Assembly: GCF_023705585.1 (NCBI RefSeq)
Contig: NZ_BOQE01000001.1
Location: forward strand, 1,825,001-1,889,000
DNA length: 64,000 nucleotides
Direction: 5' to 3'
Source: Collibacillus ludicampi
GTDB lineage: Bacteria > Bacillota > Bacilli > Tumebacillales > BOQE01
A program made the position numbers and the translations under genes. This document shows positions 10,631-50,459 of this stretch, in pieces. Positions within the stretch are counted from its first letter, which is position 1; every line of letters begins with the position of its first letter. The notes under the pieces were generated by a model, which was not told the DNA's origin, ran no database searches, and was given only the letters and a program-made list of their open reading frames with translations.

Positions 10631-10875
10631 GTTTTCAAAGTAACCCTCCATGCCGCAAGCGGCGTCACCAGAGGATGAAAAATTTCATGTGTGGAAAAGA
10701 AGTTTGAGGCTGCCAGAAGCAACGGAGTGTCTTTTGGGTGGATTGTATCGCTTTGCAGCGCAGAGGTGAGTTGAAGGTCGTTCCGCAACCTTTGTTAAGA
10801 GATCGGGCGGGACGACCTTCATCGAACCCAAGCGCAAAGCGATACATCCACCCAAGCACTCATTTTCAAAATAAC
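10629..10875 (+). repeat. Nested palindromic element, copy 2 (short form)
   Basis: Same family as at 374-722 but without stems B and C. It has GCCGCAAGCGGC (10652-10663), outer arms with TATCGCTTTGC and GCAAAGCGATA, and an inner stem GAAGGTCGTTCCGC / GCGGGACGACCTTC closed by a short loop. Boundary repeats TAGTTTTCAAAGTAACC and CTCATTTTCAAAATAAC flank it. It lies directly after the T-box terminator, so every antiterminated alaS transcript carries this hairpin. Confidence 0.85.
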
Positions 10876-21274: not shown

Positions 21275-22234
21275 TTGTTAGAAGAGTTACGTGTAGCCCA
21301 ATATCGATTTGTAGTGGAAGCAGGGGAGCAAGGAATCGAATTGCCTATATTCAAAACAGCCGCTTTGCGCGGAGGATTTGGACAGGTCTTTAAGTCACTC
21401 GTTTGTACATATCCGAGTCTTGAGTGTAAACATTGTTCTCTGTCAGAAACATGTCCATACCCTTATGTTTTTGAAACACGACCGAACCAAGATGCGGAAA
21501 TTCAGCAATCTTTCGATAATATCCCAAGACCTTACATCCTGCGTGCAAGCCTCGACCGGCAAACGCGGTTTCAACCGGGTGAGACGTTTGTGTTTGATTT
21601 GGTACTGATCGGTCAAGCCATTACATACGCTCCTTACTTTATTTATGCATTCGATCGTTTGCTTGAAACCGGAATTGGTTACGGAAGGAGACCTGGAAAA
21701 CTTCTTAGAGTAGAAGGAATAGATTTGGATACGCATCTTTCCTTTTGCATCTTTGACGGTCATACCAAGCGGCTGATCGGCAAAGAGTTCGTTTATTCGG
21801 GTCAAAGCATTATGGAAAAAGCGAAAAAACTCCGTCCCCAAAAGGTGACTCTGTATTTCCAAACTCCTTTTCGGACGAAATGGCAAGGCCGTTATACAGA
21901 TCGGACAGATTTTCATATCATCATACGTTCTCTGCTAAGGAGATTATCAAGTATTTTCTACTTTCATCATCAAATAAAACTTAACATTGATTTTAGCCAT
22001 ATCATTCGGAAAGCAGAAGCTATTCAAATAGTTTCGGATAAAACACGATGGATGGATTTTTCACGTTTTTCCGCTCGTCAGGATACAAAGATGAACCTTG
22101 GGGGATTCGTCGGATGGGCAACGTATGAAGGGGACTTGGAACCATTTGTCCCTCTTTTGCTGGCAGGGGAACTCTTGCATGCTTCAAAACAAGCTGTGTT
22201 TGGTCTTGGGCAGATTCGATGTGTGTGGGGTTAG
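21275..22234 (+). CDS. cas6: CRISPR pre-crRNA endoribonuclease Cas6
   Basis: 319 residues. It should cut the repeat transcript at the base of the repeat hairpin, giving crRNAs with an 8-base 5' tag. The first RAMP domain begins RVAQYRFVVEAGEQGIELP, with the conserved AALRGGFGQVF; a cysteine cluster C-x6-C-x2-C-x5-C (CTYPSLECKHCSLSETC) suggests zinc binding. The second RAMP domain ends in the glycine-rich KQAVFGLGQIRC that contacts RNA. Start TTG 21275 follows AGGAAAGGATGA. First gene of the I-D operon. Confidence 0.88.
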   Translation: MLEELRVAQYRFVVEAGEQGIELPIFKTAALRGGFGQVFKSLVCTYPSLECKHCSLSETCPYPYVFETRPNQDAEIQQSFDNIPRPYILRASLDRQTRFQPGETFVFDLVLIGQAITYAPYFIYAFDRLLETGIGYGRRPGKLLRVEGIDLDTHLSFCIFDGHTKRLIGKEFVYSGQSIMEKAKKLRPQKVTLYFQTPFRTKWQGRYTDRTDFHIIIRSLLRRLSSIFYFHHQIKLNIDFSHIIRKAEAIQIVSDKTRWMDFSRFSARQDTKMNLGGFVGWATYEGDLEPFVPLLLAGELLHASKQAVFGLGQIRCVWG

Positions 22235-22292
22235 TCATGTGTGATCTCTTGACCCGTTTTAAGGGGACGATCTTAGTTTTGGGGGTCTAAGG

Positions 22293-23294
22293 GTGAGAAA
22301 GAACATTGAACGTCACATGTGGCCGCGGCTCTATAAAATCCATCACTTATTGTTGAAAAAGAGATATCCTTCTCGTCAAGAATTGGCCGAACGATTAGAA
22401 GTGAGTCCCCGTACTATTCAGAGGGATCTTGATTTACTAAGAGATGAATTGGGGGCTCCGATCGAGTATGACAAAATGAGAGGCGGCTACTATTACACGA
22501 ATGACCAATTCTCTTTAATTCCTTTACATCTAAATGTGCAGGAACAATTGGCTCTTCAACTAGCTTATTTATTCTCAAAACAAATTGCAGACCCTCTTCT
22601 GCAAGATATGATGTATTCGGCTATGGAAAAGATTGTTTATCTATTTCCAAACCAGGTGAGCATGGATTTGGAAGAATGGGACGGAATCATCTCTTCGGCT
22701 CAGGATACGTTTTATAACCAACAAATGAGAGATCATTTTCTTTTGATTCTAAATGCCATCGAGAAGAATCAATGTTTGGAGATGGTCTATCATTCGTTTT
22801 CCTCACAAACGGTGCACAATCGAAGAATCGATCCCTATCATCTACGCAAAAGCCGCGGCACATGGTATCTAATCGCTTATTGTCATAAACGTAACAGTAT
22901 GCGCATGTTTGCCCTGCAAAGAATTCATTCGTTACGCATACTTGATGAGACATTCGAACGTCAACCATTTGATATAGAGGATTATATGAAGGGAGCTTTC
23001 TTTGAGGAAAGAGGAGATCAGGTCTTCGAGGTGGTTCTTCGCTTCTCGGCTAAACAGGCTCCTTACATTAAGGAACGGATATGGCATAGCAGTCAGGAAT
23101 TATACGAAGAAACGGACGGATCAGTGATTTTGCGTCTTCAGGTGAGTGGACTCGATAGTATCAAACGATGGGTCTTATCCTATGGCAAAGAAGTGGAAGT
23201 GATCGAACCTTTACAACTGAAAAATGCTGTATTCGGCGAAGTGAATGAACTCGTGAAACAATATGAAAAAAATCTGCGCAAGTTTTCGGAGTGA
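22293..23294 (+). CDS. WYL-domain transcriptional regulator of the CRISPR locus
   Basis: 333 residues. An N-terminal winged helix-turn-helix (SRQELAERLEVSPRTIQRDLDLLR) binds DNA; the middle (about 150-230) is a WYL ligand domain with RRIDPYHLRKSRGTWYLIAYC, and a WCX-type C-terminal extension follows. WYL proteins are often found with type I-D loci; Sll7009 of Synechocystis represses its I-D crRNA array. A like role here is inference. GTG start after GGGGGTCTAAGG. It sits between cas6 and cas3' on the same strand. Confidence 0.88.
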   Translation: MRKNIERHMWPRLYKIHHLLLKKRYPSRQELAERLEVSPRTIQRDLDLLRDELGAPIEYDKMRGGYYYTNDQFSLIPLHLNVQEQLALQLAYLFSKQIADPLLQDMMYSAMEKIVYLFPNQVSMDLEEWDGIISSAQDTFYNQQMRDHFLLILNAIEKNQCLEMVYHSFSSQTVHNRRIDPYHLRKSRGTWYLIAYCHKRNSMRMFALQRIHSLRILDETFERQPFDIEDYMKGAFFEERGDQVFEVVLRFSAKQAPYIKERIWHSSQELYEETDGSVILRLQVSGLDSIKRWVLSYGKEVEVIEPLQLKNAVFGEVNELVKQYEKNLRKFSE

Positions 23295-23309
23295 CAGTTG
23301 ATGTCACTC
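23289..23309. promoter_or_regulatory. Perfect inverted repeat between the WYL gene and cas3'
   Basis: GAGTGACA-GTTGA-TGTCACTC, overlapping the WYL stop codon and 37 bases before the cas3' start. There is no T run, so it is not a typical terminator. An operator for the WYL regulator in front of the effector genes is plausible. Confidence 0.5.
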
Positions 23310-23346
23310 TTGGCGGGTATGATAGAGGTGTAAGGGGTGAATACAC

Positions 23347-26160
23347 TTGGAACGTGTGAGGGTTTCCGTGACGAATCAACCGCCTGTCGAAGCAACCGGC
23401 GTAACGGGGGATGAAATCGATCTCTTCCAAAGGTATATAGGCGATACGCGAAGGTTCCCCTTTGAACACCAGGCTCGAGCATTCCAAATCATCCGCGAAG
23501 GGAAAGAGTGTGTGCTTGTTGCAGGGACTGCGGCGGGAAAAACATTATCGGTTGTGATTCCTTTGCTTTTGCGGGTTCAAAAAGGACTGTCACGAAAAAT
23601 CTTGTTTCTTTACCCCGCATTGGCACTGCTGGAGGACCAGCTACAGACGATACGCAGAGTGGCTCAGTCCATCGGTTATGAGAACGCGATCGGTCATATC
23701 TACGGGGGAATGACCAGAAGAGAGCTTACGGAGCAATTAACGAAGCCGATCCTAGTGGCGACACCGGATGCGATCTACTGGTTTGTCGAAAAAAACACAA
23801 AGTATGGCCCCTTGTTTTTGTACAGCCTTTGTCAAGTGGACGATATCGTGATCGATGAAGCACATATCTTGTCAGGTCTCATGGGGGAAAATCTGAAAGC
23901 GTTTCTGGACCGACTCAACGTTCTTCGCACTCAGTTTTTACATAAAAAACGAATACGGGTTCACGTCTTGACGGCTACACCAACAGAAGTCGTTGACAAG
24001 TTGTCCAAAGGTGAGAAGGTGTATGGCCGATCCAAGGTGGGAGAAGTAATTTTTGAAGCGGAGTTGTTAAGTAAGGGAAACACTGAATCATGGTTGCAAT
24101 TGATTCAGCGGGAAGCAAATGGTGATTTTCGCCGTATGATTGTCGTTGTCAATTCCGCCAAACGAGCGCATCAATTATTTTTTGCTTGCAAGGAAGAACA
24201 GCAGAATAGCAAGAGGATCATGCCTTTTCTCAGACAGTTTGGTTGGATACGTTTGCAGGATGTCGGACGGGTTCTTTATACACAATATCCGCATCTTCTA
24301 TCCACTGTTGAAGGGTGGATGCGTGAACAGACAGAGCATATTCTTATTCCTTTACAAAATTTGTATGATGATGACAATCTTCTTGTTTCGGCGGGCACCT
24401 TGTCGGAGTGGGGGGAGTCATGGACGGAGCGGTGGAAGAAGAGAATTTCTAGTGAAATAAAAGAATTTTTTCAAAAAGAGAGTAAGAGGAAGCTGGAATA
24501 TACCTTAAACGGGAAATGGAGAAACCATCAAGCACTCATGCGATTCGGGCGTCTTACATATCAAGACTATCAGCGAACGATCGACCAATATGCGGAACAT
24601 CTGATTAGGGCATGGGAAGCGAATATTCACACGCTTGTGGAAGAATCGGACGAAGCCGTATTGACAAAGAGAGGTTTACAGGAATTCTTCCGAACGTTAT
24701 CACTTGATCCTCTCTTTCACGGGATTGCTGATGACCTGAAGAACGATGTATTTCGCCAGCGAATCCCGTTACGTCATGTGAACACTCCTTTCGAAAAACT
24801 TCTTACTCTGCCTCTTCCCTCGATACCGATTCGTGAAGTGGAAGAAGTGTGTATAAAGCTGGGGATTTCTTTCGAATCTGTTTTTCAGGCATGTATGAAA
24901 CAGATTCAATTGAAATATATCGGATTCTTGCAAGGGACGGATATTCCGGTCATTCTCTATACAGGCAGTATGACCAAGAGAGCGAGAAATGGTTTGATAG
25001 AGGCTTTTCAGTCTGACGAGATCAGACAGGCGATCCTCATATCCACGAGTGCGGTTGAGGTGGGGGTGGATTTTGATGCGGATCTGTTACTTTCGGAGGA
25101 ATGTACTTCGAACTCTTTTCTGCAACGATTTGGAAGGGTCGGGAGAAGAGGTGGCAATTTCCAGCGTGTGGTTCTCTTGACACAAGACGGTGGGTTATAT
25201 GGAAAATTCCGCAGGGCATTTGAAAACAAGGATCGACTAACGAGAGAAGAATTTTCGGAGGAAATTCGTTCCCTCCTTCCGGAACGCAAACATTTGAATT
25301 CTTCTCCTTATATCCACCTTCTGCACTCCCATGTGACGAGAAGATTGGGGGAGGTCGGCCGGTTAATCGCACCCGATCAACCAGAAGTGGAACGATTGTT
25401 GCTAGAAAAATGCGGGTTTCGCTACGGTCTGCGCAGTACACTTCCCCAAGTCGAGTTACTTGATGAAGGTATCGGTAAAGATCCGTTTCAGATTTTGTCC
25501 TATATTCCGAAAGAACAATTGCGAACACATTATGATTCATTCACAGTTGCAAAAGCGGATGTTTTTTTCGATCAGCTGATCTATATGAAGCGAATGTATC
25601 GTATACTGATCAATCAAGATGCGACATTGAAACAGATGAAAGTTATGTTGTACTGGCACAAGGGTCAATTGCACGGGATTGATCCGACCATTCTCATGCA
25701 AGCCGCTACACGTGGACAGCCTTGCTTCTATCAAAATACGGTCCATGCGGTTTTAAATCGTCCTAACGCTTTGAAACTGGCGTTGAGCGAAACACATATG
25801 GCGAAATTTACTCAGGTTTATCCTTATTTACAAGCGATTCAAGAGAATCCAAAACTCAATCGGTATATTCTCGGGATCGGAGATATTATTCTTCAACGTG
25901 GAAGCGGACATGATTTGCACGACCTGATCGATCAAGAGGATGACCCGATCATATTAAGAAACCAAATGTTCCTGTATTGTCCTTATGAAGCGGGGCGGGA
26001 TAGCAAGGATACAATTTCGTGGGAAGGGTTCGAACAAGAGTTGCTCGTTTTCCGTAATGAGGATTATCCGGAGTTCAACCAGCCGTTCGGGCATATTTTG
26101 ATTGACCGTGTGGCGGGAGCATGTGTGGAAATGTACAGAAGGATGGTAGAGACTGCATGA
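23347..26160 (+). CDS. cas3': Type I-D Cas3' helicase
   Basis: 937 residues. SF2 DExH-box helicase that is recruited to the R-loop and reels in target DNA. Walker A is GTAAGKT (60-66), Walker B DEAH (170-173), motif III TATPTE; the C-terminal RecA domain has SAVEVGVDFDADLLL and QRFGRVGRRGG. No HD nuclease motif is present in the chain, as is normal for I-D. TTG start following AAGGGGTG. The stop overlaps the ATG of the HD gene (ATGA), showing translational coupling. Confidence 0.93.
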   Translation: MERVRVSVTNQPPVEATGVTGDEIDLFQRYIGDTRRFPFEHQARAFQIIREGKECVLVAGTAAGKTLSVVIPLLLRVQKGLSRKILFLYPALALLEDQLQTIRRVAQSIGYENAIGHIYGGMTRRELTEQLTKPILVATPDAIYWFVEKNTKYGPLFLYSLCQVDDIVIDEAHILSGLMGENLKAFLDRLNVLRTQFLHKKRIRVHVLTATPTEVVDKLSKGEKVYGRSKVGEVIFEAELLSKGNTESWLQLIQREANGDFRRMIVVVNSAKRAHQLFFACKEEQQNSKRIMPFLRQFGWIRLQDVGRVLYTQYPHLLSTVEGWMREQTEHILIPLQNLYDDDNLLVSAGTLSEWGESWTERWKKRISSEIKEFFQKESKRKLEYTLNGKWRNHQALMRFGRLTYQDYQRTIDQYAEHLIRAWEANIHTLVEESDEAVLTKRGLQEFFRTLSLDPLFHGIADDLKNDVFRQRIPLRHVNTPFEKLLTLPLPSIPIREVEEVCIKLGISFESVFQACMKQIQLKYIGFLQGTDIPVILYTGSMTKRARNGLIEAFQSDEIRQAILISTSAVEVGVDFDADLLLSEECTSNSFLQRFGRVGRRGGNFQRVVLLTQDGGLYGKFRRAFENKDRLTREEFSEEIRSLLPERKHLNSSPYIHLLHSHVTRRLGEVGRLIAPDQPEVERLLLEKCGFRYGLRSTLPQVELLDEGIGKDPFQILSYIPKEQLRTHYDSFTVAKADVFFDQLIYMKRMYRILINQDATLKQMKVMLYWHKGQLHGIDPTILMQAATRGQPCFYQNTVHAVLNRPNALKLALSETHMAKFTQVYPYLQAIQENPKLNRYILGIGDIILQRGSGHDLHDLIDQEDDPIILRNQMFLYCPYEAGRDSKDTISWEGFEQELLVFRNEDYPEFNQPFGHILIDRVAGACVEMYRRMVETA

Positions 26161-26870
26161 ATCTAGTGGATAGGATGAATAAGGCTGTTGCCAAATCTTT
26201 ACCCAGAGTCAGCCTTTTTGAGCATAGTTTCGGTGTCCTTCAGATCGTCGATCATATGATACGGCAAACGGAAGGATACTCGAATGATCAGGCGTCTGTT
26301 CTGCGGCTCGGTGCATTTCTGCACGATATCGGGAAATTGAACGCAGACTTTCAAGAAATGCTGCTTTCATCGGACAAAAGCCAGATGAAACGGGTCAAGC
26401 ATGAAGCTCAAACATACCAGTTTTATGAAGATGTCATGAACGAAAGAAATGATGTGGTTGAATGGCTTGCGGAAGCCCTGAACTGTAGGGTCATCAATCC
26501 AAAGGATTGGGGAGATGTATTTGCGTTCGCTGTTACCCATCACGGTTTGTTTTACAGTTCCCTGGAAGAAGGAAAGTGGCACGCACGGCGAGAATGGACG
26601 CGGATGAGTCCGAAAGAGGAACGGCGTATCACATTGGCCGATCTGATGATCCGCTATTATCCGCTAGGAGGAGCAGTCATTTTTGCAGACATGCTTCATT
26701 CGGAACAATTGTCTAGCGGACGGGACAACGTCTCCGAAATCAAGGGAATGAAACATCCAAGTGACTGGCTGCTCTATGTCCGCCGGAGAAAAGAGGAGTT
26801 ATTCCACGTAAAAGAAATCGATCACGAGACGAGGATCCCCTTGGATCTTTTGGAACTGTTAATCGCATGA
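26157..26870 (+). CDS. cas3'': Stand-alone HD nuclease (Cas3''-type)
   Basis: 237 residues. HD-superfamily metal nuclease. Ligands in order: His23 (FEHSFG), His56-Asp57 (FLHDIGK), His82 (KHEAQ), His128-His129 (THHG) and Asp178 (FADML), the Cas3''/Cas10 HD arrangement. In described I-D systems the HD domain is the N-terminus of Cas10d; here it is a separate gene between cas3' and cas10d. It starts inside the cas3' stop (ATGA) and ends 13 bases before cas10d. Confidence 0.88.
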   Translation: MNLVDRMNKAVAKSLPRVSLFEHSFGVLQIVDHMIRQTEGYSNDQASVLRLGAFLHDIGKLNADFQEMLLSSDKSQMKRVKHEAQTYQFYEDVMNERNDVVEWLAEALNCRVINPKDWGDVFAFAVTHHGLFYSSLEEGKWHARREWTRMSPKEERRITLADLMIRYYPLGGAVIFADMLHSEQLSSGRDNVSEIKGMKHPSDWLLYVRRRKEELFHVKEIDHETRIPLDLLELLIA

Positions 26871-26883
26871 GGGGGTGACATTC

Positions 26884-29481
26884 ATGACGATCAATGAGCA
26901 AGTGCAGCAATTTCTTCTCCGCCATCATTGTCCGATTGATGCAAACGAGATACTGGAGAACGTCAAGCGGGGAGTGCCGTATCAAAAATTACCTTGTCCG
27001 TCAGGAGACTTGTATCTGATTCAACTCTATCACCCGGTCATCCTGAGGAGAGAGATATTCCTGGGCAACGTGTTATTTAATGCATATCTTGGTCTGACGA
27101 TGAAACACGCGTTGGACAACCATGAAAAGACGGATGCGCTTCCGCTCTTTAACGACCTTCATTCTTACTATTTTCTTGTTCATACTACTGTGTCATTAGC
27201 TGAATTAATGGAACACGTATACAAGGCATGGTATGACGGATTGGAGGATCTGTATTTTTCCGATCCATCGCCTGAGGAGATGTATACATATGCGCAGAGG
27301 GGATACTTTGGACGCTTCTCGGGGATGTTTGAAAATTATTTCAAAAGTAACATTCAACCGTTTCCTTTAATGATTATACCACTCGCTTACGTGAAGAAGT
27401 TGGAACGCGGGGTTCGCTCTTACCTGCTGGAGAAACTGCATTCAGGAACCTGGTCTGAGGGGATTGCTAATTTTACTGCCAATTTTAGTTTCTTCTATGG
27501 GCAAACAAGCGGCGGAGCGGGAGATGTACAAAGCTGTCCAAACTTTTTAAGAAGGCTTGTTTCGGAATATAGAGTTATTGAACCTGATGAGATGATCGCT
27601 GCTTTTCATTTACCACACGAATCGGATTTCAATAAACAGGAAGTAAAAGATGCCATACACTCAAAGTTATTCGCCAAAGGGAAACAACCTTCGTATGATC
27701 CTGAGGCTTTAAAAACGGTTTTTCAGAAGGCCCTGGATCATTTCGCACAATCGATTGAGTCAACTCAAGATCATCTTGGGGAGTCTGAATGGCTGTGCCG
27801 TTACCATCGTGAAAAGGGGGTTTTTTTGGATGAATCACCTGAGACGCTTTTACGTGAATTGACAAGAGGAGTGACCATTGCAGGGCGGACTGTTTTTGAT
27901 ATAGAGGAAAGTCGCGAAATCGCTGATCAGGAAACTTGTTTACTATGTGGGTGTTATCCTGCAAAACTCGAAGGGGCTACGATACTATCATCCGATTCGT
28001 TCAGTAAGTTTCATAATCATTCCATTAATCGAAAGTCAAACGAAAAGCGAATTTGCAGGAATTGTGCCTTATATGCGTATCTGAATGTTAAGTTGTCAGG
28101 TTCGAAAAGTGCTGGTATCGGTCAGATTCCACGCCAAGGAAACATCGTCTTTCATTATGGCGATTATTTGGATGGGGAATTGGACGAGGTCATCAAGAAA
28201 TTCGAGGAAAAATACCGTAGCTTATTCCGAAGCCAGACCGAAGAGAAAAATGGAGAAAATCCTTCAGAAGAAGTTCCATTTGCTTTTTTGTCGGAACTCG
28301 ATTCTGAGCACATCGAAGAAATACAAGAAGAAAACTTGCGTTCCATGTTCAGGGGCAACGATAATGGCCAAGCGCTTGTTTTGCCGATACATTTTGGACG
28401 GCAACAGTTGATCATTTTCGTTTTTCCAGGACTGAATGATGATATTCAAAAACGGTTGGATGTAAATTGGTATTCCACATGTCAAATTTTAAGCTGGTTA
28501 ACTTCCGTTGGAGGCAAGGAAGGCCCCTACTATTACCTGTCTTTGCCCCGGCCGGAACAGGTGCTTAAAAATCGCTCCATTCTCGTGATCAATGATCAGG
28601 AATACGATACAGATACAGCGATTCATTTGCATAATCTGTATCTGCAGGTCGTTCCTGAATTGTCTAAATCTCGTGCGAAAGATGGATTTAAGTATCAGAT
28701 GATAATGGCGGAGCGAGTACAGAGGGAACCATTAGGGAGATTCAGTGATGCCATACGTAATTGGATGCAGGAAAAGAAATTTTCAGCGAAAAGACAAGAT
28801 ACGTTTTTCGCAGTCTATGGAAAGATCCACGATATTCTCGATATGGAGGGGTTGTACATGTCGGAGGAAAAGAAGATCCTCGATGAGTTTTCCAACCGAA
28901 TGTTCTTTACATTAGACATGCTCGGAATCCTCACAGAATATCCCGGGGATTTGACAAATCGCCCAAATGCGTATGAAAAATGGCCCCGAGAATTAGTGGG
29001 TCCTTTGAAGAAAAAAGGAGCCAACATGCGCTTTGTCATGGAACAGTGGAAAAACCGGGTAATCCGCGCCGCTTTGGCTTCAGCTACTGAACGGAGAATC
29101 AGCGAGTCAGAACGTCAATCGTACATCGAGCAACTCCACAAATTTGAAGCGTGGTGCTGGCAGTATGAAGATACGATTGTGCGTCATGCGAACCATTTGC
29201 TAACAAGTTTGCTGGCAAGAGCGTTTGTTTATCTTTATACGGTTCGAGCGCTGAGCGAATATTATTTGCAATTACATAAAGATCATCCGGAAATGTTGTC
29301 GAAGGAAGCAGTCCTGCAGAGATTTGAGGAAGATGTCGAGCAGCGTTATCAAGAATTGAAAAAAGAGGGGCGCATTGATCCTCTTCTCAAGGAATGTTCC
29401 ATGCACCATCTTATGAAATATATCAACTATTACAAAAAGAAAATATCCAATCAAATCACAAATGGAGGCGAAAAAGCATGA
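26884..29481 (+). CDS. cas10d: Type I-D large subunit Cas10d (Csc3), lacking an HD domain
   Basis: 865 residues. The large subunit of the I-D Cascade, thought to recognise the PAM. The N-terminal 300 residues have no HD motif. A zinc-ribbon-like cysteine set lies near residues 351-394 (ETCLLCGCYP, later RICRNCALYA). No GGDD palm signature is seen, so no cyclic oligoadenylate synthesis is expected. ATG 26884 follows GAGGGGGTGA. Its end overlaps csc2 by ATGA. Assignment rests on the cysteine motif, length and position next to csc2 and csc1. Confidence 0.82.
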   Translation: MTINEQVQQFLLRHHCPIDANEILENVKRGVPYQKLPCPSGDLYLIQLYHPVILRREIFLGNVLFNAYLGLTMKHALDNHEKTDALPLFNDLHSYYFLVHTTVSLAELMEHVYKAWYDGLEDLYFSDPSPEEMYTYAQRGYFGRFSGMFENYFKSNIQPFPLMIIPLAYVKKLERGVRSYLLEKLHSGTWSEGIANFTANFSFFYGQTSGGAGDVQSCPNFLRRLVSEYRVIEPDEMIAAFHLPHESDFNKQEVKDAIHSKLFAKGKQPSYDPEALKTVFQKALDHFAQSIESTQDHLGESEWLCRYHREKGVFLDESPETLLRELTRGVTIAGRTVFDIEESREIADQETCLLCGCYPAKLEGATILSSDSFSKFHNHSINRKSNEKRICRNCALYAYLNVKLSGSKSAGIGQIPRQGNIVFHYGDYLDGELDEVIKKFEEKYRSLFRSQTEEKNGENPSEEVPFAFLSELDSEHIEEIQEENLRSMFRGNDNGQALVLPIHFGRQQLIIFVFPGLNDDIQKRLDVNWYSTCQILSWLTSVGGKEGPYYYLSLPRPEQVLKNRSILVINDQEYDTDTAIHLHNLYLQVVPELSKSRAKDGFKYQMIMAERVQREPLGRFSDAIRNWMQEKKFSAKRQDTFFAVYGKIHDILDMEGLYMSEEKKILDEFSNRMFFTLDMLGILTEYPGDLTNRPNAYEKWPRELVGPLKKKGANMRFVMEQWKNRVIRAALASATERRISESERQSYIEQLHKFEAWCWQYEDTIVRHANHLLTSLLARAFVYLYTVRALSEYYLQLHKDHPEMLSKEAVLQRFEEDVEQRYQELKKEGRIDPLLKECSMHHLMKYINYYKKKISNQITNGGEKA

Positions 29482-30437
29482 GTTTGGAACAAATCCGTGA
29501 ATGGTTGAATCCGATCGAAACAGTCTTGAAACTGGAAGGCGGGAAAAAGAAGAACGAAAAAATGTTGCCGCCGGTTATGAAACGAAACGTAGTAACGATC
29601 ATCGGCGTCAAGAGAACAGTGGGGCGTTTTCTTCCTGTCTCCCATGAAGGATATTCCAATGAAACGTATGTAGATAAAGTTGAGTTGCTGAATCGTGAGA
29701 GGGCGGAATTCATTGCCCGCAAATTAAAAGGAATCGAACGACGGGCCCATATGTCCCTGTACAGAGAATTAATCGAGAAAACGGTAGAGAAAGAATGGAA
29801 CTTGGCGTTTGAAGAATTGTACGGAAAAGCGTGCACCATTCCCTCCGGACTCTGTGTTACTTGCTGGAATTGCTCCTTATTTGGGGCATTGGAAGCAGGC
29901 AAGGGCGGAACATTTTCACGAATCCGTTATTTTGACACTTGGTCATTCGAATCTACGGATGAATGTGTAGCCAGCATCCAGTCCGGAGAAGGCATGGGGA
30001 TTGGCAACACTGTCAGCGAAGATCTGCGAGAGGAAAGAGGGGCTGATTCCTATCATTTATATGAATACGTAAAGCCTGGAACTCATTTTCCGTTTATTAC
30101 AATCATTGAAAGCCCGACATCTCTTGATTTGGCAGGATACATTCAAGCGGTTCGCATGGCGGATCTTCATGGTTATGGGAAATATAGCGCTAACCATGGG
30201 AAGTTTGAGACCACCTTCCTTTCCGTCGCGCCCGGTATGCCGCGCTTCTCCATCTTGACGATGTTAGAGAATGTGGAGGGCGATGTTATCAAAGGATTGG
30301 AAAGAAAATTCACAGACGGCACATTCGCTTTTGACGCTCCTGAACAGTCTGTGATTCTCGGTCATAACGAGATTCTTTCCATTGGTCATGAGCTAGAAAA
30401 AGAATTTGCGGATTACGTAAAAATCGTACGTCAATAG
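29478..30437 (+). CDS. csc2: Type I-D backbone subunit Csc2 (Cas7)
   Basis: 319 residues. It polymerises along the crRNA spacer to form the I-D Cascade backbone. It begins MSLEQIREWLNPIETVLKLE; a cysteine group CVTCWNC near residue 130 could hold zinc, and GMPRFSILTMLENVEGD near the end fits the RAMP fold of the Csc2 family. ATG 29478 follows AATGGAGGCG and overlaps the cas10d stop. Confidence 0.9.
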   Translation: MSLEQIREWLNPIETVLKLEGGKKKNEKMLPPVMKRNVVTIIGVKRTVGRFLPVSHEGYSNETYVDKVELLNRERAEFIARKLKGIERRAHMSLYRELIEKTVEKEWNLAFEELYGKACTIPSGLCVTCWNCSLFGALEAGKGGTFSRIRYFDTWSFESTDECVASIQSGEGMGIGNTVSEDLREERGADSYHLYEYVKPGTHFPFITIIESPTSLDLAGYIQAVRMADLHGYGKYSANHGKFETTFLSVAPGMPRFSILTMLENVEGDVIKGLERKFTDGTFAFDAPEQSVILGHNEILSIGHELEKEFADYVKIVRQ

Positions 30438-30449
30438 GGAGGAAGCCAG

Positions 30450-31217
30450 GTGTATGCGCGTGCCTTACTTCTCCGGAACTGTGGACGATATACCTTGGTT
30501 CGCTCCGACTTCGGGTCGGATTATATAACGTGTCGGTTTGTTAGCGAAGAATCTTTGTACGCAGGGTTAACGAGAGAACAGGCAAGAAAGTTCGGAAGGA
30601 TCGAACCGAACATGGGGGCCGATTTTGCAAAAGCGTACGATATATCAGCGTATCCCGTTTGGTTTACTCCAGGAGTATTTATTCATTCTCTGGACAAAGA
30701 ATTTGATGTTGTTCACACAGGACGGTTGAAATATAACGTGATTGAAGAAGCCCGCCCTTCAACAAGTGAGAGTATAGTGTATGACAAGAAGGGCGAATGG
30801 AAGAGTGGTTCGCGAAACAATTTAGCTACATTTGGATCCATTGAGTCGGTTTTGCCCAACCAATTGCTTTATACGATTGGAATCAGTGAGGACAAAGAAT
30901 TGTTATCTCGTTATCAAAGGCAAGATGTTTATCTCATGGGAAAAAAGCGTACGATGTTTGAAGTTGTCGATGTATCGGAAGTGACTTCATTGGAAGAGGA
31001 AGAGTTTCAAGAAACCGTTCCTGTTCAAGTGCAAATGAATCAACTCAACCAATACGCCTCGTATACGATCCTAGATGTGAACGCTCGGTATTTTCTGGTC
31101 GAAGGAACGTCATTGAAATGTTGGCGTGTAAATACTCACCTCCTGGGTAAACCTTTTACAAAGTATCTTCCAGGTGTTTTTGTTGAGAGGGCGGAGGAAT
31201 TGTTTTCGAAAAAATAA
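30450..31217 (+). CDS. csc1: Type I-D Csc1 (Cas5)
   Basis: 255 residues. Cas5-type RAMP that caps the 5' tag of the crRNA in the I-D Cascade. It begins MYARALLLRNCGRYTLVRSD and includes PNMGADFAKAYDISAYPVWFTPG and LPNQLLYTIGIS. GTG 30450 follows GGGAGGAAG, 12 bases after csc2. It is the last recognisable cas gene: no cas1, cas2 or cas4 follows within the window. Confidence 0.85.
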   Translation: MYARALLLRNCGRYTLVRSDFGSDYITCRFVSEESLYAGLTREQARKFGRIEPNMGADFAKAYDISAYPVWFTPGVFIHSLDKEFDVVHTGRLKYNVIEEARPSTSESIVYDKKGEWKSGSRNNLATFGSIESVLPNQLLYTIGISEDKELLSRYQRQDVYLMGKKRTMFEVVDVSEVTSLEEEEFQETVPVQVQMNQLNQYASYTILDVNARYFLVEGTSLKCWRVNTHLLGKPFTKYLPGVFVERAEELFSKK

Positions 31218-31418
31218 ACGCTTTGTTGCGGACGTGGATTTGCAGGGGCTGGGGCCAAAGTCTTGTCTTTCTAAACGAGGGGGACCCCGCCCTTGCATGT
31301 TACTTTGTGGATATTTAATAAGAATTACATTTCAACGTAATAAACAAACTATACTCGACCAAAACGGATGTTATCTTCTGTTATGGTTTAAAAATCCTCT
31401 AATTTGCAGCTATGTACA

Positions 31419-31639
31419 CAGCAAGGAACGTTCGTATTTTCGGATCGCAAGCTCGCGGAGAGGAAAACGAATACAGTGATGTGGATATGCTCGTTCGTTG
31501 CATTTGAAAACCCAAACTTACTCAATCAAATATCCTTGAACTGGAAGATCTCCTACATTGCCCGGTTGATCTACTGACAGATTCATCAATTCATCCGCTG
31601 TTACGTGATGATATCTTGAAAGATGCGATTCACATTTAA
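31419..31639 (+). pseudogene. Remnant of a minimal nucleotidyltransferase (MntA-like antitoxin)
   Basis: One frame shows [23 protein letters not shown], the GSxARGxxxxxSDxD nucleotidyltransferase signature, then hits a stop. Another frame continues with LELEDLLHCPVDLLTDSSIH and ends at the TAA at 31637, as MNT proteins do. At least one frameshift and a stop break the gene and no start or ribosome site is left. No HEPN toxin partner is visible. Upstream 31218-31418 holds nothing I recognise. Confidence 0.7.
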
Positions 31640-31771
31640 AACGTTAACAATGCAAATAAATCATGAATGTGAAGGGGAAGCTACTCATAACGAAATGAGC
31701 AGTAGATTCCAAAAGAAAGTAGAAGTAATTTCACGTTTATTGTGAAATAAAAATAATAAAAGAGAATCGAG

Positions 31772-32000
31772 TATAATGAAGGGGACGTCCCATACTTTTT
31801 ATAGGGGAGTACTGGAAATACTTATCAAATGGTCATGACTCATGAAATTACGGACTTCTGGATGGTCAATTTGTCATTTTCGAGTCAACTCCCATTTTTC
31901 CAACAAAAAACCAATCCTCGAAAAGTACACCTTTCCGAACAAAAAGCCGAATCCGCGAATACCGCGCCTGGCTTAAATTCTCGTAGTGCCCGCAAATGCG
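31772..32000 (+). promoter_or_regulatory. Leader of CRISPR array 1
   Basis: Contains a -10-like TATAAT (31772-31777), a palindrome GGGACGTCCC (31782-31791), and the inverted repeat TTTTCGAG (31877-31884) / CTCGAAAA (31917-31924) separated by 32 bases. The last 14 bases before the first repeat are TGCCCGCAAATGCG. The inverted repeat and the 14-mer recur at identical distances before array 2. No good -35 is seen. Confidence 0.65.
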
Positions 32001-32677
32001 GTAACATTCATGACCCGAGTAACTAGGGGACTGAAAGAAAATACTGGCGATGAGAAGCGTGTACGGTGCGCAAGGTAACATTCATGACCCGAGTAACTAG
32101 GGGACTGAAAGTCAACGTCCAATAAAAGAGCACCACAAAGAGAAGCGCGTAACATTCATGACCCGAGTAACTAGGGGACTGAAAGTAAACAAAAGTCAGT
32201 CGAAGCCATTCAAAATTGATAAGTAACATTCATGACCCGAGTAACTAGGGGACTGAAAGTCGGGAGATCCAAACTACGTTGCACGACAACGATGAGTAAC
32301 ATTCATGACCCGAGTAACTAGGGGACTGAAAGAGCCCAGAACAATAAAATTAAAAAGCAACTTAGAATGTAACATTCATGACCCGAGTAACTAGGGGACT
32401 GAAAGTCGCCATTCCACAAAAGCATCCGAGCATAGAAGGTGCGTAACATTGATGACCCGAGTAACTAGGGGACTGAAAGCTCAGACACAACCCGGGGACA
32501 CTCATTGATTCGTTATTGTAACATTGATGACCCGAGTAACTAGGGGACTGAAAGTCGATGAGAAGAGTGAGGAGCATATCGTCCTCACTCCCGTAACATT
32601 GATGACCCGAGTAACTAGGGGACTGAAAGGTCAGTTCCTGTATCTCACGCTTAAACAGATCCGCATGTAACATTGAT
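32001..32677 (+). CRISPR. CRISPR array 1 (9 full repeats, 9 spacers, truncated last repeat)
   Basis: 37-base repeats start at 32001, 32075, 32149, 32223, 32296, 32369, 32443, 32518 and 32593, with an 11-base remnant at 32667. Spacers are 36-38 bases. The repeat begins GTAACATT, has the stem CCC-g-AG / CT-a-GGG with loop TAA, and ends in the tag ACTGAAAG. Repeats 1-6 read ATTCATG, repeats 7-9 and the remnant ATTGATG. The leader is at the left and the degenerate end at the right, so transcription runs rightward, 780 bases after csc1. Confidence 0.98.
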
Positions 32678-33296
32678 AAACAGGGAATCTAGAAATCCGG
32701 TAGAAATAACAGGTTACGATGTGAATGGTCTGTTGAAGGAAGAAATACTTACAAAAACCCTAAAATCCCGAACACTAAGGCTTCTTCCTGGGTCACGAAT
32801 GCCTGATCTTGGCATGCCAAACTCCCGGTTTGAGGTTGTTTTTCTTAAACCGGTATTTCTTTTTCAGATTTTTAACAATTAGCAGCGCTTGTTTTTATAT
32901 AGAATGCCAGACTTCTGCTTCGCGCTCGATCCAGCCCTTGTACCGTTTTCTCTTCCGCTAAGGCATGATCGCAACGAGTGCATCTTTTTTGGATCTTTCG
33001 GTATTTACCTAAGTTGGATGCGCTTTGGCTTTATTCTTGATCTGGACTTTGTCCATTGTTCTCTCTTTTTCGCAGATTTTCCGGAACATGGGTTTGTCTT
33101 TTCCAAGCGGGGATCGGTTCCAATTCCAGTTTCCGTAGTGAAATGAGCGGAACGTTGCTTTGTGGATACGTGCCGAGTTAGTCTGGCGTTCCGTATGTTT
33201 TGTCTTCATACAGTGCGAATCCTAATTCTGTATCTTTTATGTAATCACTTATTATCGGAATATATGGTTATTTAAGGGGTGCAAAAATTTTTGTGT
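32678..33296. other. Region after array 1 with no recognisable gene
   Basis: About 600 bases. Short open frames exist on both strands but none has a ribosome site together with a recognisable protein. It may hold decayed genes. Confidence 0.4.
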
Positions 33297-33755: not shown

Positions 33756-35145
33756 AAGTTGAGTCCGATATACTGTGTAAAAATGGTTCAGTAATCTAGC
33801 AAAAATTGAGCCATTTCGCTTCCTCTTTGGTAGAATAAGGTTGGCGACTAATCTACTAAGGAGGAATGGAAAATGGCTCAATATCAGATTAACCTAAATG
33901 ATGAAATTTTGCACGGTTTATTTCAGAGGGATGAAGCGGTAGCTCGATTAATCGAGCAAGTATTGAATCAGGTCCTTCAGGCCCAGGTTACAGAACAGCT
34001 GAAAGCAGCTCCGTATGAGCGTACCGAAGAACGTCAAGGATACCGGAATGGTACACTCCCCATACTCTCACTACACGAGTAGGGACGCTCACGCTTCGCG
34101 TTCCAAGACTCCGGAATGGTCAATTCTCTACAGACCTTTTCATGCGCTATCAGCGGAGTGAACAAGCTCTCGTCTTAGCCTTAATGGAAATGGTGGTCAA
34201 TGGGGTCTCCACCCGTAAGGTAGCCAAAATTACGGAGGAATTGTGTGGAACAGAGTTCTCAAAATCAACGGTGTCGGACTTGTGTAAACGCCTGGATCCC
34301 ATTGTACATGCCTGGAACAATCGGAACCTTAGAGAGCATACGTATCCCTTTCTCATCGTGGATGCCATGGTTTTAAAAATCCGGGAAGAGGGACGTGTGC
34401 GTTCTCGGAGTGTCATGATCGCAACGGGCATTAACGAAGAAGGATATCGTGAAATCCTGGGGCTGATGCTTGGAGACAGCGAATCGGAAGCAAGCTGGAC
34501 AGAGTTCTTTTCATGGCTCAAAAGCAGAGACTTGCGAGGCGTGGATATCGTCGTCTCGGACAGCCATAGTGGGTTGGTAAATGCCGTAAAAGCGCAATTT
34601 CAGGGATGTACGTGGCAACGTTGTCAAACTCATTTTATGCGTAACTTACTGGATGCTACACCCAAGTCCCTACAAGGGGATGTCTATGGGCGTGTAAGAG
34701 CGATTCTTGACGCTCCTGACTTAAAACGGCGAGAGTCTTACTGAACCAGGTGATCGAAGACTATTACGAAAAAGCTCCACGTGCTATGCGGGTGCTTGAA
34801 GAAGGATTTGACGATGTGACAGCTGTATTGGAGCTTCCAGAACGTTATCGCAAGCGATTACGCACAACCAATGGCCAGGAGCTCCTGAACGAAGAAATCC
34901 GTCGACGCGAGCGGGTGATCCGCATCTTTCCCAATCGAGAGTCCGCCTTACGGCTGCTTGGTGCGTTGCTGATGGAGATGGATGAGAAGTGGAGTACGGG
35001 CCGTCGCTACCTGGACATGACTGAGTACTGGGATTGGCGCAAAGTACAGAAAGAGACTTTGAAACAGGCTTCCAAGGTACACCATCTTCGCTAGACGACC
35101 TGTTCTACCAAAGAGGGGATTTTACACACAAATTCGGACTTGATC
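33756..35145 (+). mobile_element. IS256-family insertion sequence
   Basis: 1390 bp. Ends are related inverted repeats (left AAGTTGAGTCCGATATAC.., right GATCAAGTCCGAATTTG.. on the opposite strand, both continuing into GTGTAAAA), flanked by the 8-bp target duplication GTCAAAGC (33748-33755 and 35146-35153). The ends resemble the known IS256 GATAAAGTCCG terminus. Inserted at the start of the GGDEF domain of the cyclase. Confidence 0.93.
33873..35094 (+). pseudogene. IS256-family transposase, two frameshifts
   Basis: DDE transposase of the Mutator/IS256 type. Three frames must be joined: 33873-34060 (MAQYQINLNDEILHGLFQRD...), about 34060-34735 (VDAMVLKIREEGRVRS holds the first Asp; VDIVVSDSHSGLV the second) and about 34735-35094 (QELLNEEIRRRERVIRIFPN, holding the Glu region). 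Frameshifts near 34060 and 34735 make it inactive unless supplied in trans. Confidence 0.88.
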
Positions 35146-35286
35146 GTCAAAGCATCTTTGTCCGCGTAATATTTTGCTTTGTCATATTGTTTTCCACATA
35201 ACCAACAAATACCTAACGATACGATGTCGGTAATGTAAGCGTAAAATAATCCCCACCTTTTGAAGATATGGGGATTTTTGTATGAT

Positions 35287-36858
35287 TTACGTATTCTTTT
35301 TTATAGTCCGGCAGGTAAGCGGTAGGCTTTCTGACCAAGGGAGAAGCTGATCTAAGAAATCTTTGTCTTTCATATCTAGGTTAGGTAGTTTCTCAAAGAG
35401 ATAGGTAAGATAGGAATAGGGATGTAATCCATTTTCTTTCGCTGTCTCTATGATACTGTAAATGATCGCACTCGCCTTTGCACCACGCGGGGTATTGGAG
35501 AACAACCAGTTTTGCGACCGATCACAAACGGTTTGATCGCGCGTTCACTTCGGTTGTTATCGATCTCCAATCGCCCATCTTGTAAAAACGCCTCTAATTT
35601 TTCCCACTGGTTCAGACAATACAAGATTGCCTGACCGAACGCACTTTGGGCAACACTTTCGGTTTCTGGGTACGTAGCCATGCCAAAAAGCATCCAACAC
35701 AGGGCGGCTGCGTTCTTGACGGATTTGGTAACGTTCCTCAGGCGTGCACTCCTTTAAGTCCCGTTCAATCGCAAAGAGTTGATTGCAGAAATTGAGTCCC
35801 TCTTTGGCTGCTACCGGTGACGAGCGCTTCGATTCAGGCAGCGCCTTGAGTGCCTCATCGAATTTGCGCCGGGCGTGAGCCCAACAACCGACCAGGGTCA
35901 CATCCGGTATCCCATGGTAACCCGCATAGCCATCGACGTGCAGGTACCCTTTGAAACCGGAAAGAAACTGACGCGGGTGTTTGCTCGCCCGTGTCGTCTG
36001 GTAGTCATAGAGGATGATGGCCGGACCTTCTCTCCCGGTGCGGTACAGCCATAGATAAGAAGTCGTCTGTGCGGCCCGACCCGGTTCGCGGAGCACTTGT
36101 AAGGTCGTCTCGTCTGCGTGCAGAATGTCCTGCTTGAGTAAGTGCTCGCGCATGCGATCATAGAGCAGACTCAACCAGGTATTCGCTCCGTAGAGGATCC
36201 AGTTGGCCAGGGTCTGACGAGACAACTCAATCCCCAGGCTTGCAAACTGTTGCTCTTGTCGGTAGAGAGGCATGCTCTCCACATATTTTTGACTCATGAT
36301 ATAGGCCATACTGGAAGCAGAAGCCAAACTCCCCGGAAAGACGGGGGCAGGCATAGAGGCTGTGACTATCGGCGTACTTGTCTCCTCACGCTCACAACGG
36401 CGGCAGGAGTAGACGTAACGGACATGCTTGACCACTTTGACTTCGGCCGTTAATCTTCAGCTCTTGCCGTATCTCCGTGCTCATTTCATGCAAAGAACCA
36501 CCGCAACACGAACAAACCTGCTCCTCAGATGGCAGGCGATACTCGATCGTCTCCACTGGCAGGTTTTCAAGCAGGGTTTCCCGGTGGCCGCGTTTTTGGA
36601 GCGGCGGTACGTAATGGTTTCGAGGGTAGGCTCCTCTACAGTGGGATCTGCCTCCACCTCGGCTTCGTTAAAAGCTCAAGCTGATCGGCATTCGTTCGTT
36701 CGCTCGAAGAGCCAAACCGGCGCTGTTGGCTAAGACGAAACTGCTCCTCATACCACTTCAGTTTGGCGGTCAGTTCCGCATTTTGCTTTTTCAGCCAATC
36801 GCATTCTTTTGGAGATCTTCTATTGTAGTAGGGGTCGGGTTCAATGTATGATTTTTCA
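35287..36858 (-). pseudogene. IS66 transposase TnpC, several frameshifts
   Basis: The N-terminal start MKNHTLNPTPTTIEDLQK is followed by a frame change; a leucine-rich stretch with SSSERTNADQLEL follows in another frame; the DDE core is intact in 35690-36435 ([34 protein letters not shown]). The last part ([19 protein letters not shown]) and the C-terminal IS66 tail lie in two more frames. At least four shifts, so the transposase is dead. Confidence 0.88.
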
Positions 36859-36927
36859 TAATACTATTGATTTGGACAATGTACAGCCAATTCCTTTTCC
36901 ATTCAAAAAATAGGTGGATGTGTGGAA

Positions 36928-37284
36928 TCATACGATTGTGCGCGCGGTCACCGCAGGGTGAGCTTGTCGCTGTTCGAGAGATAAACCATCGAGTAGCCAA
37001 CGCAACTCCCGACGACTGATTTTCAACGGTACGGAGCTCGCTTCTTCCGGCCACTGAAATTTTCCTTTCTCTAACCGGCGGTAATAGAGCCAGAAACCGT
37101 TGTGTTCCCAATGAAGAATCTTCAGTTTATCTCGCTTTCGATTGCAGAAAACGAAGAGACAGGGCGAGAAAGGGTCGAGTTCAAACTCTTCCTTGACGAG
37201 CACAGCTAACCCGTCAATCGATTTCCGTAGATCGGTGCTTCCGCAGGCCAGATATACTCGCTCTACAATAGCTTCGCTTAGCAT
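36928..37284 (-). CDS. tnpB: IS66 accessory protein TnpB
   Basis: 118 residues, full length for IS66 Orf2. MLSEAIVERVYLACGSTDLR, then KSIDGLAVLV and the conserved FVFCNRKRDKLKILHWE are diagnostic. Required with TnpA and TnpC for IS66 transposition; its exact biochemical role is unknown. Overlaps the end of tnpA by seven bases. Confidence 0.92.
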   Translation of the reverse strand: MLSEAIVERVYLACGSTDLRKSIDGLAVLVKEEFELDPFSPCLFVFCNRKRDKLKILHWEHNGFWLYYRRLEKGKFQWPEEASSVPLKISRRELRWLLDGLSLEQRQAHPAVTARTIV

Positions 37285-37595
37285 AACGTTTGGAGTGTTC
37301 GCACGACGTCGGCCAGCAGCGCAGGATCAAAGCCAGGCTGGATCTCTACGGTTACTTGCCCTACTCTAACGAGCAAGGTGTTTCTAGACTCGTCAGTCTG
37401 CCCGTCCACTTCTGCCGATATCCACTTGGATGATGGGGTCACAGCGGCTTCTTTGTGTTCAATCTTCCGGAGCCAATACCGGAACTGATGAAGCTTCAAC
37501 TGATGAGCTCTACACCAAGCTGATGCGCTCTGTCCGCTAGCCCGAAAAGCGGCGATCCGTACCTCCCACTCTTTTCTCAGTTCTGCATGGGACAT
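37278..37595 (-). CDS. tnpA: IS66 accessory protein TnpA
   Basis: 105 residues. Helix-turn-helix protein starting MSHAELRKEWEVRIAAFRAS, with SASAWCRAHQLKLHQFRYWLRK, typical of IS66 Orf1. First gene of the element, immediately inside the right end. Intact, unlike tnpC. Confidence 0.88.
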   Translation of the reverse strand: MSHAELRKEWEVRIAAFRASGQSASAWCRAHQLKLHQFRYWLRKIEHKEAAVTPSSKWISAEVDGQTDESRNTLLVRVGQVTVEIQPGFDPALLADVVRTLQTLC

Positions 37596-39144: not shown

Positions 39145-39330
39145 CCTATCTTGAAAATGTGTAGTTTGGTGGGCGTATGCTTTGCGTTCGCGCTCCGTGG
39201 AGGTCGTCTCGCATGGAACAATGATTAAATGTCGCGAGACAACCTCCAAAGTCGCTGTCTCACGCAAAGCATTACGCCCACTCGAAGACACTTTTCATCC
39301 TCTGATGGTGCCGCTTGCGGCATGGGGGAC
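39145..39330 (-). repeat. Nested palindromic element, copy 3 (B/C form, inverted)
   Basis: Reverse orientation. From right to left it has the GCCGCAAGCGGC mini-hairpin, the CAGAGGATGAAAAG block, outer arms GTGGGCGTATGCTTTGCG / ACGCAAAGCATTACGCCCAC and inner arms TGGAGGTCGTCTCGC / GCGAGACAACCTCCA, then the ATTTTCAAGATAGG boundary at 39145-39160. Stem A is fused with B. Its right boundary supplies the stop codon region of the dehalogenase gene. Confidence 0.8.
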
Positions 39331-39992
39331 TACCGGGAAATTAAGTGTGCCAGTTCTAGCAAATCCTGTACCTGATAATCCGGCTGAACTCCAAGCTCTT
39401 CAATTGGATTGCCCGTACGGTTGATCCAACCGACGGTAAAACCGAACGATTTGGAACCGGCCACATCCCACCCGTTTGATGAAAGAAATAAAACTTTTTC
39501 TTTGGAGATCCCTAACTTGGTGACAGCAAGTTGATAGACCTGTGGATTTGGTTTATAAGTTTTTAGTGCGTCCACGCTTAAAATCGCAGTAAAGTACGAT
39601 TCTAATCCGGCATTTTCAACCACGATGTGTAGCATCTTACTGGTTCCATTAGACAAGATCAGGAGTTGCCGAGGCTGGAATGCATTCAATGCGTCGACCA
39701 CTTCGGGATAGGGAGTAAGGTTCAGGTAGGCGGCTGTTAATTTCTCGATCGTGTCCTCACTAAATTCCAGCTTCAACTTGTTTAACGAGAACCGTAGCGA
39801 GTCCCGGTTAATAGCTTCAAAATCCACAAATCTGTTCATAAGTGCCCGTAGCCATGTGTATTCGAGTTGTTTCTGACGCCAAGTTTGGCTAATGAAAGTC
39901 CCCTTACCGGGGTACAATTGTTCACAGGCGTCGATGACTGAATTCACATCAAATAACGTTCCATATGCGTCAAAGACTACTGCCTCAATCAT
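39330..39992 (-). CDS. Haloacid dehalogenase, type II (L-2-haloacid dehalogenase-like)
   Basis: 220 residues. Motif I VVFDAYGTLFDV (Asp nucleophile), motif II LILSNGTSKML, Lys in LKTYKPNPQVY, and motif IV FLSSNGWDVAGSKSFGF; the SSNxWD form is the one seen in L-2-haloacid dehalogenases and differs from phosphatases. It would hydrolyse 2-haloacids such as L-2-chloropropionate. ATG 39992 follows GGAGG. The stop codon lies exactly at the edge of palindromic copy 3, so the native C-terminus may have been changed by it. Confidence 0.88.
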   Translation of the reverse strand: MIEAVVFDAYGTLFDVNSVIDACEQLYPGKGTFISQTWRQKQLEYTWLRALMNRFVDFEAINRDSLRFSLNKLKLEFSEDTIEKLTAAYLNLTPYPEVVDALNAFQPRQLLILSNGTSKMLHIVVENAGLESYFTAILSVDALKTYKPNPQVYQLAVTKLGISKEKVLFLSSNGWDVAGSKSFGFTVGWINRTGNPIEELGVQPDYQVQDLLELAHLISR

Positions 39993-44335: not shown

Positions 44336-44715
44336 GTAACATTGATGACCCGAGAATCTAGGGGACTGAAAGTGATCAAGCCGTTCAAAACTCGCTTCAT
44401 CTAGTCCTGTAACATTGATGACCCGAGAATCTAGGGGACTGAAAGTTTCGTAGAAAATTCATCCATTTCATCTCCCCCCTTGTAACATTGATGACCCGAG
44501 AATCTAGGGGACTGAAAGGAGGGAACTTAGACAAGCCCAAGAAATAGCAAAAGGGTAACATTGATGACCCGAGAATCTAGGGGACTGAAAGAAACGCTTC
44601 AGCGTATACACATCTGTCTGCTATGTCGTAACATTGATGACCCGAGAATCTAGGGGACTGAAAGTTTTTTGAACTTGAACTTGATTAAAAGGATTCGCCA
44701 TGTAACGTTGATGAC
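44336..44715 (+). CRISPR. CRISPR array 2 (5 full repeats, 5 spacers, truncated last repeat)
   Basis: 37-base repeats start at 44336, 44409, 44482, 44555 and 44628, with a 14-base degenerate remnant GTAACGTTGATGAC at 44702. Spacers are 36-37 bases. The repeat is that of array 1 (ATTGATG form) except that the hairpin loop is AAT instead of TAA; stem and ACTGAAAG tag are unchanged, so the same Cas6 should process both. Same orientation as array 1. Confidence 0.98.
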
Positions 44716-44717
44716 TT

Positions 44718-44736
44718 CTGTGTAAAAATGGTTCAG
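44718..44736 (+). mobile_element. IS256-like terminal fragment at the end of array 2
   Basis: CTGTGTAAAAATGGTTCAG is identical over 19 bases to 33773-33791, the inner part of the left end of the IS256 element. It begins two bases after the broken last repeat. No transposase follows. Confidence 0.6.
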
Positions 44737-44784
44737 AAAGTACATTTGACCAGAGAAGGATCTTGATTGGCTCACTCCCATTTA

Positions 44785-45433: not shown

Positions 45434-45678
45434 AATCAAGATAGCCCCTCATGCTACAATCGGCGCAGCTATCAGTGGATGAAAAGTTTCTTGCGCAGGA
45501 AGAGAAGTATAAGACTATCTTAAGAAACAGAGTGGCTTTTGGGTGGGTGTATCGCTTTGCAGCGCAGAGGTGAGTTGAAGGTCGTTCCGCAACGTCTGTA
45601 AAGAATCAGGGCGGAACGACCTTCATCGAACCCAAGTGCAAAGCGATACACCCACACAAGCACTCTTTTTCAAGAGCC
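45434..45678 (+). repeat. Nested palindromic element, copy 4 (short form)
   Basis: Full left part (GTTTCTTG...CTTAAGAAAC hairpin, GGATGAAAAG block), outer arms GTATCGCTTTGC / GCAAAGCGATAC, and inner GAAGGTCGTTCCGC / GCGGAACGACCTTC stem (14 bp, perfect). Lacks stems B and C, like copy 2. Bounded by TCAAGATAGCC and TTTTTCAAGAGCC. The mini-hairpin is degenerate here. Confidence 0.85.
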
Positions 45679-50204: not shown

Positions 50205-50459
50205 GGTTTCTTAGGTGGTGGGGATACCTCTATGTAGCGAGGGAGTGACCTTGAAAGTCGTCTCACTTCCTTGTGACGTTAAAGGGTATATGCTTTGCGC
50301 GTAATAGCGACTTTGGAGGTCGTCTCGCAACAACTAAACATATTCCAAGCGAGACGGCCTCCACGGAGCATGAGCGCAAAGCATATGCCTCAATGACGAC
50401 CTTCATCGAACCCAAGCGCAAAGCGATACACCCACCCAAGCAAAAGTTTTCAAAGTAGC
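50205..50459 (+). repeat. Nested palindromic element, copy 5 (full inner part, decayed left arm)
   Basis: Stems B (GTATATGCTTTGCGC / GCGCAAAGCATATGC) and C (GGAGGTCGTCTCGC / GCGAGACGGCCTCC) are intact and match copy 1 closely; the right arm of A (CGCAAAGCGATACACCCACC) is intact, while the left arm of A has decayed (50205-50270). Right boundary AGTTTTCAAAGTAGC. Lies between the CoiA-like gene and ahcY. Confidence 0.82.

Follow-up and report, generated by a model that had tools for sequence, protein, structure and literature searches.

Can a single letter that varies between the repeats of one CRISPR array tell, from one genome, in which order its spacers were taken up? This question is raised by a locus of Collibacillus ludicampi (assembly GCF_023705585.1), which we analysed within a window of 64,000 nucleotides (positions 1,825,001 to 1,889,000 of contig NZ_BOQE01000001.1; coordinates are those of the window unless a genome position is given, and the genes, arrays, leader and spacer described in it lie on the plus strand). 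The array in question, array 1, occupies 32001-32703 and consists of nine intact repeats of 37 bases and a decayed tenth, with spacers of 36-38 bases between them. The intact repeats are nine exact copies of GTAACATT[C/G]ATGACCCGAGTAACTAGGGGACTGAAAG, and the repeat pattern at up to 3 mismatches gave 14 matches in the window versus none in shuffled sequence. This repeat pattern search gave C at base 9 for the six repeats on the leader side, repeats 1-6 (starts 32001, 32075, 32149, 32223, 32296 and 32369; 32001-32405 including the intervening spacers), and G for repeats 7-9 (starts 32443, 32518 and 32593; 32443-32629). The degenerate terminal repeat (32667-32703) carries G at base 9 and AATC at bases 20-23, the latter as in a second array of the window. 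These letters agree with the original prediction, in which G had been assigned to repeats 7-9 and the remnant and C to the six repeats before them; the end that the prediction gave, 32677, is that of the well-kept first 11 bases of the remnant, but the remnant itself runs to 32703. Thus, there is a single boundary in array 1, with six C followed by three G and a G remnant. An unbroken leader-side block of six C among nine repeats is 1 of 84 possible arrangements, or 1 of 210 when the remnant is counted.

The leader of array 1 (31800-32000), delimited by leader alignments, contains the motif TTTTCGAG...AATCCTCGAAAA, and AAATGCG adjoins repeat 1. When the regions upstream of the three arrays of this genome were aligned, TTTTCGAG, AATCCTCGAA and the bases adjoining repeat 1 were found to be common to all of them. 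The motif TTTCGAG...AATCCTCGAA is also found in a leader of another genome of the same order (G002, locus L069), and the contig of that leader carries cas1 and cas2. At the opposite end, a decayed terminal repeat was present in all three arrays. The orientation of array 1, with the leader on the left and the old end on the right, is therefore confirmed. Since it is given by the leader motif upstream and the decayed repeats downstream, it is independent of the polymorphism, and the direction that had been read from the polymorphism is the same one.

Which of the two letters is the older one was addressed with the other arrays. Array 2 contains five intact repeats (44336-44664; repeat pattern search) and a degenerate sixth (44702-44740). 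G was found at base 9 in 5/5 intact repeats and in the degenerate one, so the statement that all of array 2 reads G holds for the complete array. Two further positions, 20 and 22, distinguish its intact repeats from those of array 1, with AATC in place of TAAC at bases 20-23. The third array lies outside the window, at G000:C1:2343589 (L009:8590), and shows G at base 9 and TAAC in all four intact repeats, and A at base 9 in its degenerate fifth repeat. Among 19 repeat starts in the genome, no C-type repeat was detected outside array 1. Since arrays 2 and 3 carry G, we take G to be the ancestral letter and C the derived one. The AATC in the remnant of array 1 hints at an older layer, although only two bases of this decayed repeat are informative. 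Because the repeats of the arrays differ at these further positions, their history comprises more than one step. The claim that uptake was working after the arrays separated stood in part: uptake did work in the past, but the wording presumes a common parent array. The surroundings of the arrays also contain mobile and repetitive sequences. Between arrays 1 and 2 (34142-37595) there are pieces of a Mutator-family transposase together with IS66-family genes, and five sites of the window, one of them inverted, carry copies of an imperfect dispersed repeat that measures a few hundred bases at most (349-722, 10633-10869, 39172-39344, 45468-45673 and 50285-50459). A stage II sporulation gene lies near the array locus.

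All 18 spacers of the three arrays are distinct, and no spacer-to-spacer match was obtained at E<=0.01. Because all of them differ, the C-type repeats did not result from duplication of repeat-spacer units and should have arisen together with new spacers. We propose that array 1 was extended at its leader end, the leader-proximal repeat being duplicated with each new spacer, and that a single G-to-C change at base 9 of that repeat would then have been copied by at least five acquisitions. Spacers 1-5 would postdate the change and spacers 7-9 would predate it, so that one letter step would order these spacers in time from one genome, without strain data. cas1, cas2, cas4 and csa1 would later have been lost, or would have acted in trans and since gone, the outcome being a fixed memory beside an interference operon that is apparently intact. 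We assign a probability of roughly 0.86 to this account, i.e., one mutation in a leader-proximal repeat, at least five acquisitions after it, and a memory then fixed by loss of the adaptation genes. Its central part, one G-to-C change and no fewer than five acquisitions thereafter, is well supported by the single boundary, the ancestral G, the distinct spacers and the orientation, as the original prediction had held. The mechanism of copying, the place of the loss in this order of events and the present inability to acquire spacers are inferred.

The same letters would also be obtained if the C block had been imported whole by recombination with another, now lost, C-type array, in which case the boundary would mark a crossover. 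The three arrays of the genome resemble one another in their repeats and leaders, the remnant of array 1 shows the AATC letters of array 2, and a spacer present twice in one array of L069 suggests that units do rearrange within arrays. However, no C-type repeat was found beyond array 1 among the 19 genomic repeat starts, and the arrays have no spacer in common. Recombination is hence judged to be quite improbable.

The frequency of variant repeats was examined in arrays of the relatives of the cas operon described below and of G002. Among 260 distinct repeats (7 arrays, 6 genomes), only 3 were variants, each of them the last repeat listed of its array; in this count, repeats with more than 9 mismatches to the consensus (12 for G002) are undetectable. 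The sample consisted of 113 repeats from G083 (two stretches of 33 and 81, less 1 shared), 30 from G337, 19 from G136, 21 from G134, 45 from G189, whose array is cut by the contig end, and 29 and 3 from G002. Since internal variants are rare in the relatives, it is unlikely that six identical adjacent variants arose by independent mutation, and one copied event is favoured. Gene conversion, spreading C among adjacent repeats without new spacers, would likewise give identical letters, and the repeats, closely spaced and identical over 36 of 37 bases, are suited to it; the boundary would then say little on age. However, neither scattered nor partial conversion was seen in the arrays of the relatives or in the rest of the genome, and array 1 has one boundary, with the C block on the leader side. 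We regard conversion as very unlikely. The repeat of array 1 was itself found in this genome only, out of 14 genomes of the order (0/13 others), and a scan of genome_contigs records gave no match to it.

It could further be argued that C was favoured through the repeat RNA. With C at base 9, four additional base pairs are predicted (bases 7-10 pairing with bases 32-35, which belong to the presumed 5' handle of the crRNA), and the predicted minimum energy is -6.5 kcal/mol versus -4.1 kcal/mol for the G form. However, the stability of the C form is ordinary when compared with shuffled sequences (z -0.84; 34 of 200 fold as well), the A at base 9 in the terminal repeat of array 3 is what would be expected of a free position, and a mutation in the leader-proximal repeat propagates without any advantage. 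Selection on this base seems highly improbable, and C at base 9 is regarded as a neutral marker.

The signature of mutation and copying is of a kind already described, and it is ordinary biology. In passages of a study of Escherichia and Salmonella arrays, Touchon and Rocha 2010 (PMC2886076) inferred copying of the repeat from the adjacent one from stretches of variant repeats; as in array 1, those arrays show neighbouring runs of one repeat variant and a terminal repeat that is degenerate at its 3' end. They differ in that many strains were compared there, whereas array 1 comes from one genome and belongs to a type I-D-like system with no detectable Cas1. A passage in PMC12638026 cites a study of repeat mutations by CRISPR subtype, which may already cover patterns of this kind statistically. 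The main use of array 1 would be in teaching, or as a single data point for surveys of adaptation loss.

The genes upstream of array 1 form an operon (21275-31217) in which all frames are open. It starts with cas6 (21275-22234; PADLOC Cas6 2.8e-96, Pfam CRISPR_Cas6 above cut-off), followed by a gene for a WYL-domain regulator (22293-23294; PADLOC WYL 1.6e-46; Pfam WYL, WCX and HTH_11), the cas3' helicase gene (23347-26160; PADLOC Cas3 2.5e-162) and a separate cas3'' HD nuclease gene in a frame different from that of cas3' (26121-26870; Pfam HD and Cas3_HD above cut-offs). Next are a cas10d-like large subunit (26875-29481; PADLOC Cas10_Id 1.6e-68, with Cas11d at 2.5e-23 in the C-terminal part), cas7d (csc2; 29394-30437; Pfam Csc2 35.1 bits with a cut-off of 25.5, NCBIfam cas_Csc2 34.5 with a cut-off of 38) and cas5d (csc1; 30450-31217; PADLOC Cas5d 3.8e-52). 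No HD domain match was obtained at the N-terminus of the cas10d-like protein, nor any Pfam match in it. All five relatives of the operon that were compared (L064, L065, L066, L067 and L068) likewise have a separate HD gene. In passages of a review of type I-D systems (PMC10212523), HD is fused to Cas10d. The features described there and found here are the cas10d-like subunit with a Cas11d-like C-terminal part, csc2, csc1, cas6, the separate cas3' helicase, the WYL regulator and a leader of roughly 200 bases in which motifs are conserved; in contrast to that description, HD is here a gene of its own, and cas1, cas2 and cas4 are missing. Because HD is separate from Cas10d and not fused to it, we named the system type I-D-like.

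Relatives of the operon were retrieved by a profile search, in which 6 of 397 other genomes of the phylum gave matches at E<=0.001. Five of them, from other families (G083, G337, G136, G189 and G134), were compared and the sixth, G258 (4.4e-4), was left out; a less sensitive Cas10d scan of genome_contigs gave no relative. All five contain cas1. In four of them, cas1, cas2, cas4 and csa1, a type I-A kind of gene, are located between cas5 and the array, and in the fifth, cas1 is found further along, close to the end of the sequence that was compared. These genes were named by Pfam in G189 and by similarity to G189 in the other relatives. As judged by tblastn and the gene order of the relatives, the corresponding site in C. 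ludicampi is 31218-31780, and none of the four genes is there: the Cas1, Cas2, Cas4 and Csa1 proteins of the relatives gave no tblastn match at E<=1 in window positions 31150-32000.

The search was extended to the whole genome. Cas1 (PF01867) gave no match in the source genome; of 14 genomes from the order, 6 have it, and the control query matched in 9/14 known genomes. That cas1 was missed by the assembly, which comprises 7 contigs with an estimated completeness of 99.87%, is unlikely but possible. The sole match to Cas2 (PF09827) in the genome, at G000:C1:3330668-3330880 (L041:8669-8881), has an internal stop codon and adjoins two copies of an unrelated repeat (L041 9142-9257). This Cas2 relic with its two-copy array is what remains of another CRISPR locus. 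The one Cas4 match in the genome, on contig 2, was discarded: genes for a single-strand-binding protein and a primase-like protein are close to it (read by eye from the translations), and it is probably a phage-type nuclease and not part of the CRISPR module. The simplest reading, which rests on parsimony, is that the adaptation block was lost from the genome after array 1 had grown. Spacer uptake worked formerly and is now probably lost, the record looking frozen. The locus would illustrate, on a small scale, an immune memory apparently no longer growing while its interference genes are still open. CRISPR loci described in passages of PMC8092290 borrow Cas1-Cas2 in trans and resemble this one in having interference genes and arrays without adjacent cas1-cas2; unlike in those loci, no Cas1 was found here anywhere in the genome.

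The leader-side spacers might also have been added by machinery not encoded here, for instance that of a passing element, and a resident array would then have been updated by visitors. A cas1-cas2 pair of this lineage does exist in G002, where a Wadjet system is surrounded by arrays with matching leaders. We nevertheless consider this origin of the spacers unlikely. In L069, cas1-cas2 and two arrays flank JetABCD (Wadjet type II) on both sides; no recognised CRISPR effector was detected on that contig, and no Cas10_Id match in the genome of G002. An identical spacer occurs twice in array 2 of L069, at repeats 12 and 19, which is a sign of either rearrangement or repeated capture.

Finally, targets of the spacers were searched for. 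Array 1 matched in its own genome only the three arrays, apart from one chance match of 20 bases. Against phages, array 1 gave only a chance match at E 0.7, running from the end of spacer 9 into the remnant, spacers 8 and 1 searched alone gave short chance matches only, and arrays 2 and 3 gave none. Exact patterns derived from spacers 1, 2, 3, 4, 6 and 8 (6 of 18) were absent from viral_contigs. Against plasmids, no match was obtained with array 2 and one weak match of 28 bases with array 3. A single target was identified among the 18 spacers, that of spacer 8 of array 1 (32555-32592), which aligns from end to end (38 positions, 86.8%) with a phage gene for a gp6-like head-tail connector. The E value was 8e-4 when the spacer was searched alone and 0.05 within the whole of array 1, and no match was obtained with the reversed spacer used as control. 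Because spacer 8 lies on the older G side, this match is not a test of the claim on age. The PAM of type I-D is GTN; the protospacer is preceded by CCA and not by GTN, and a single distant target carries little weight in this respect. The matched gene is located among capsid and tail genes on a phage-like Geobacillus plasmid, and 10 of the 12 encoded residues agree between spacer and target.
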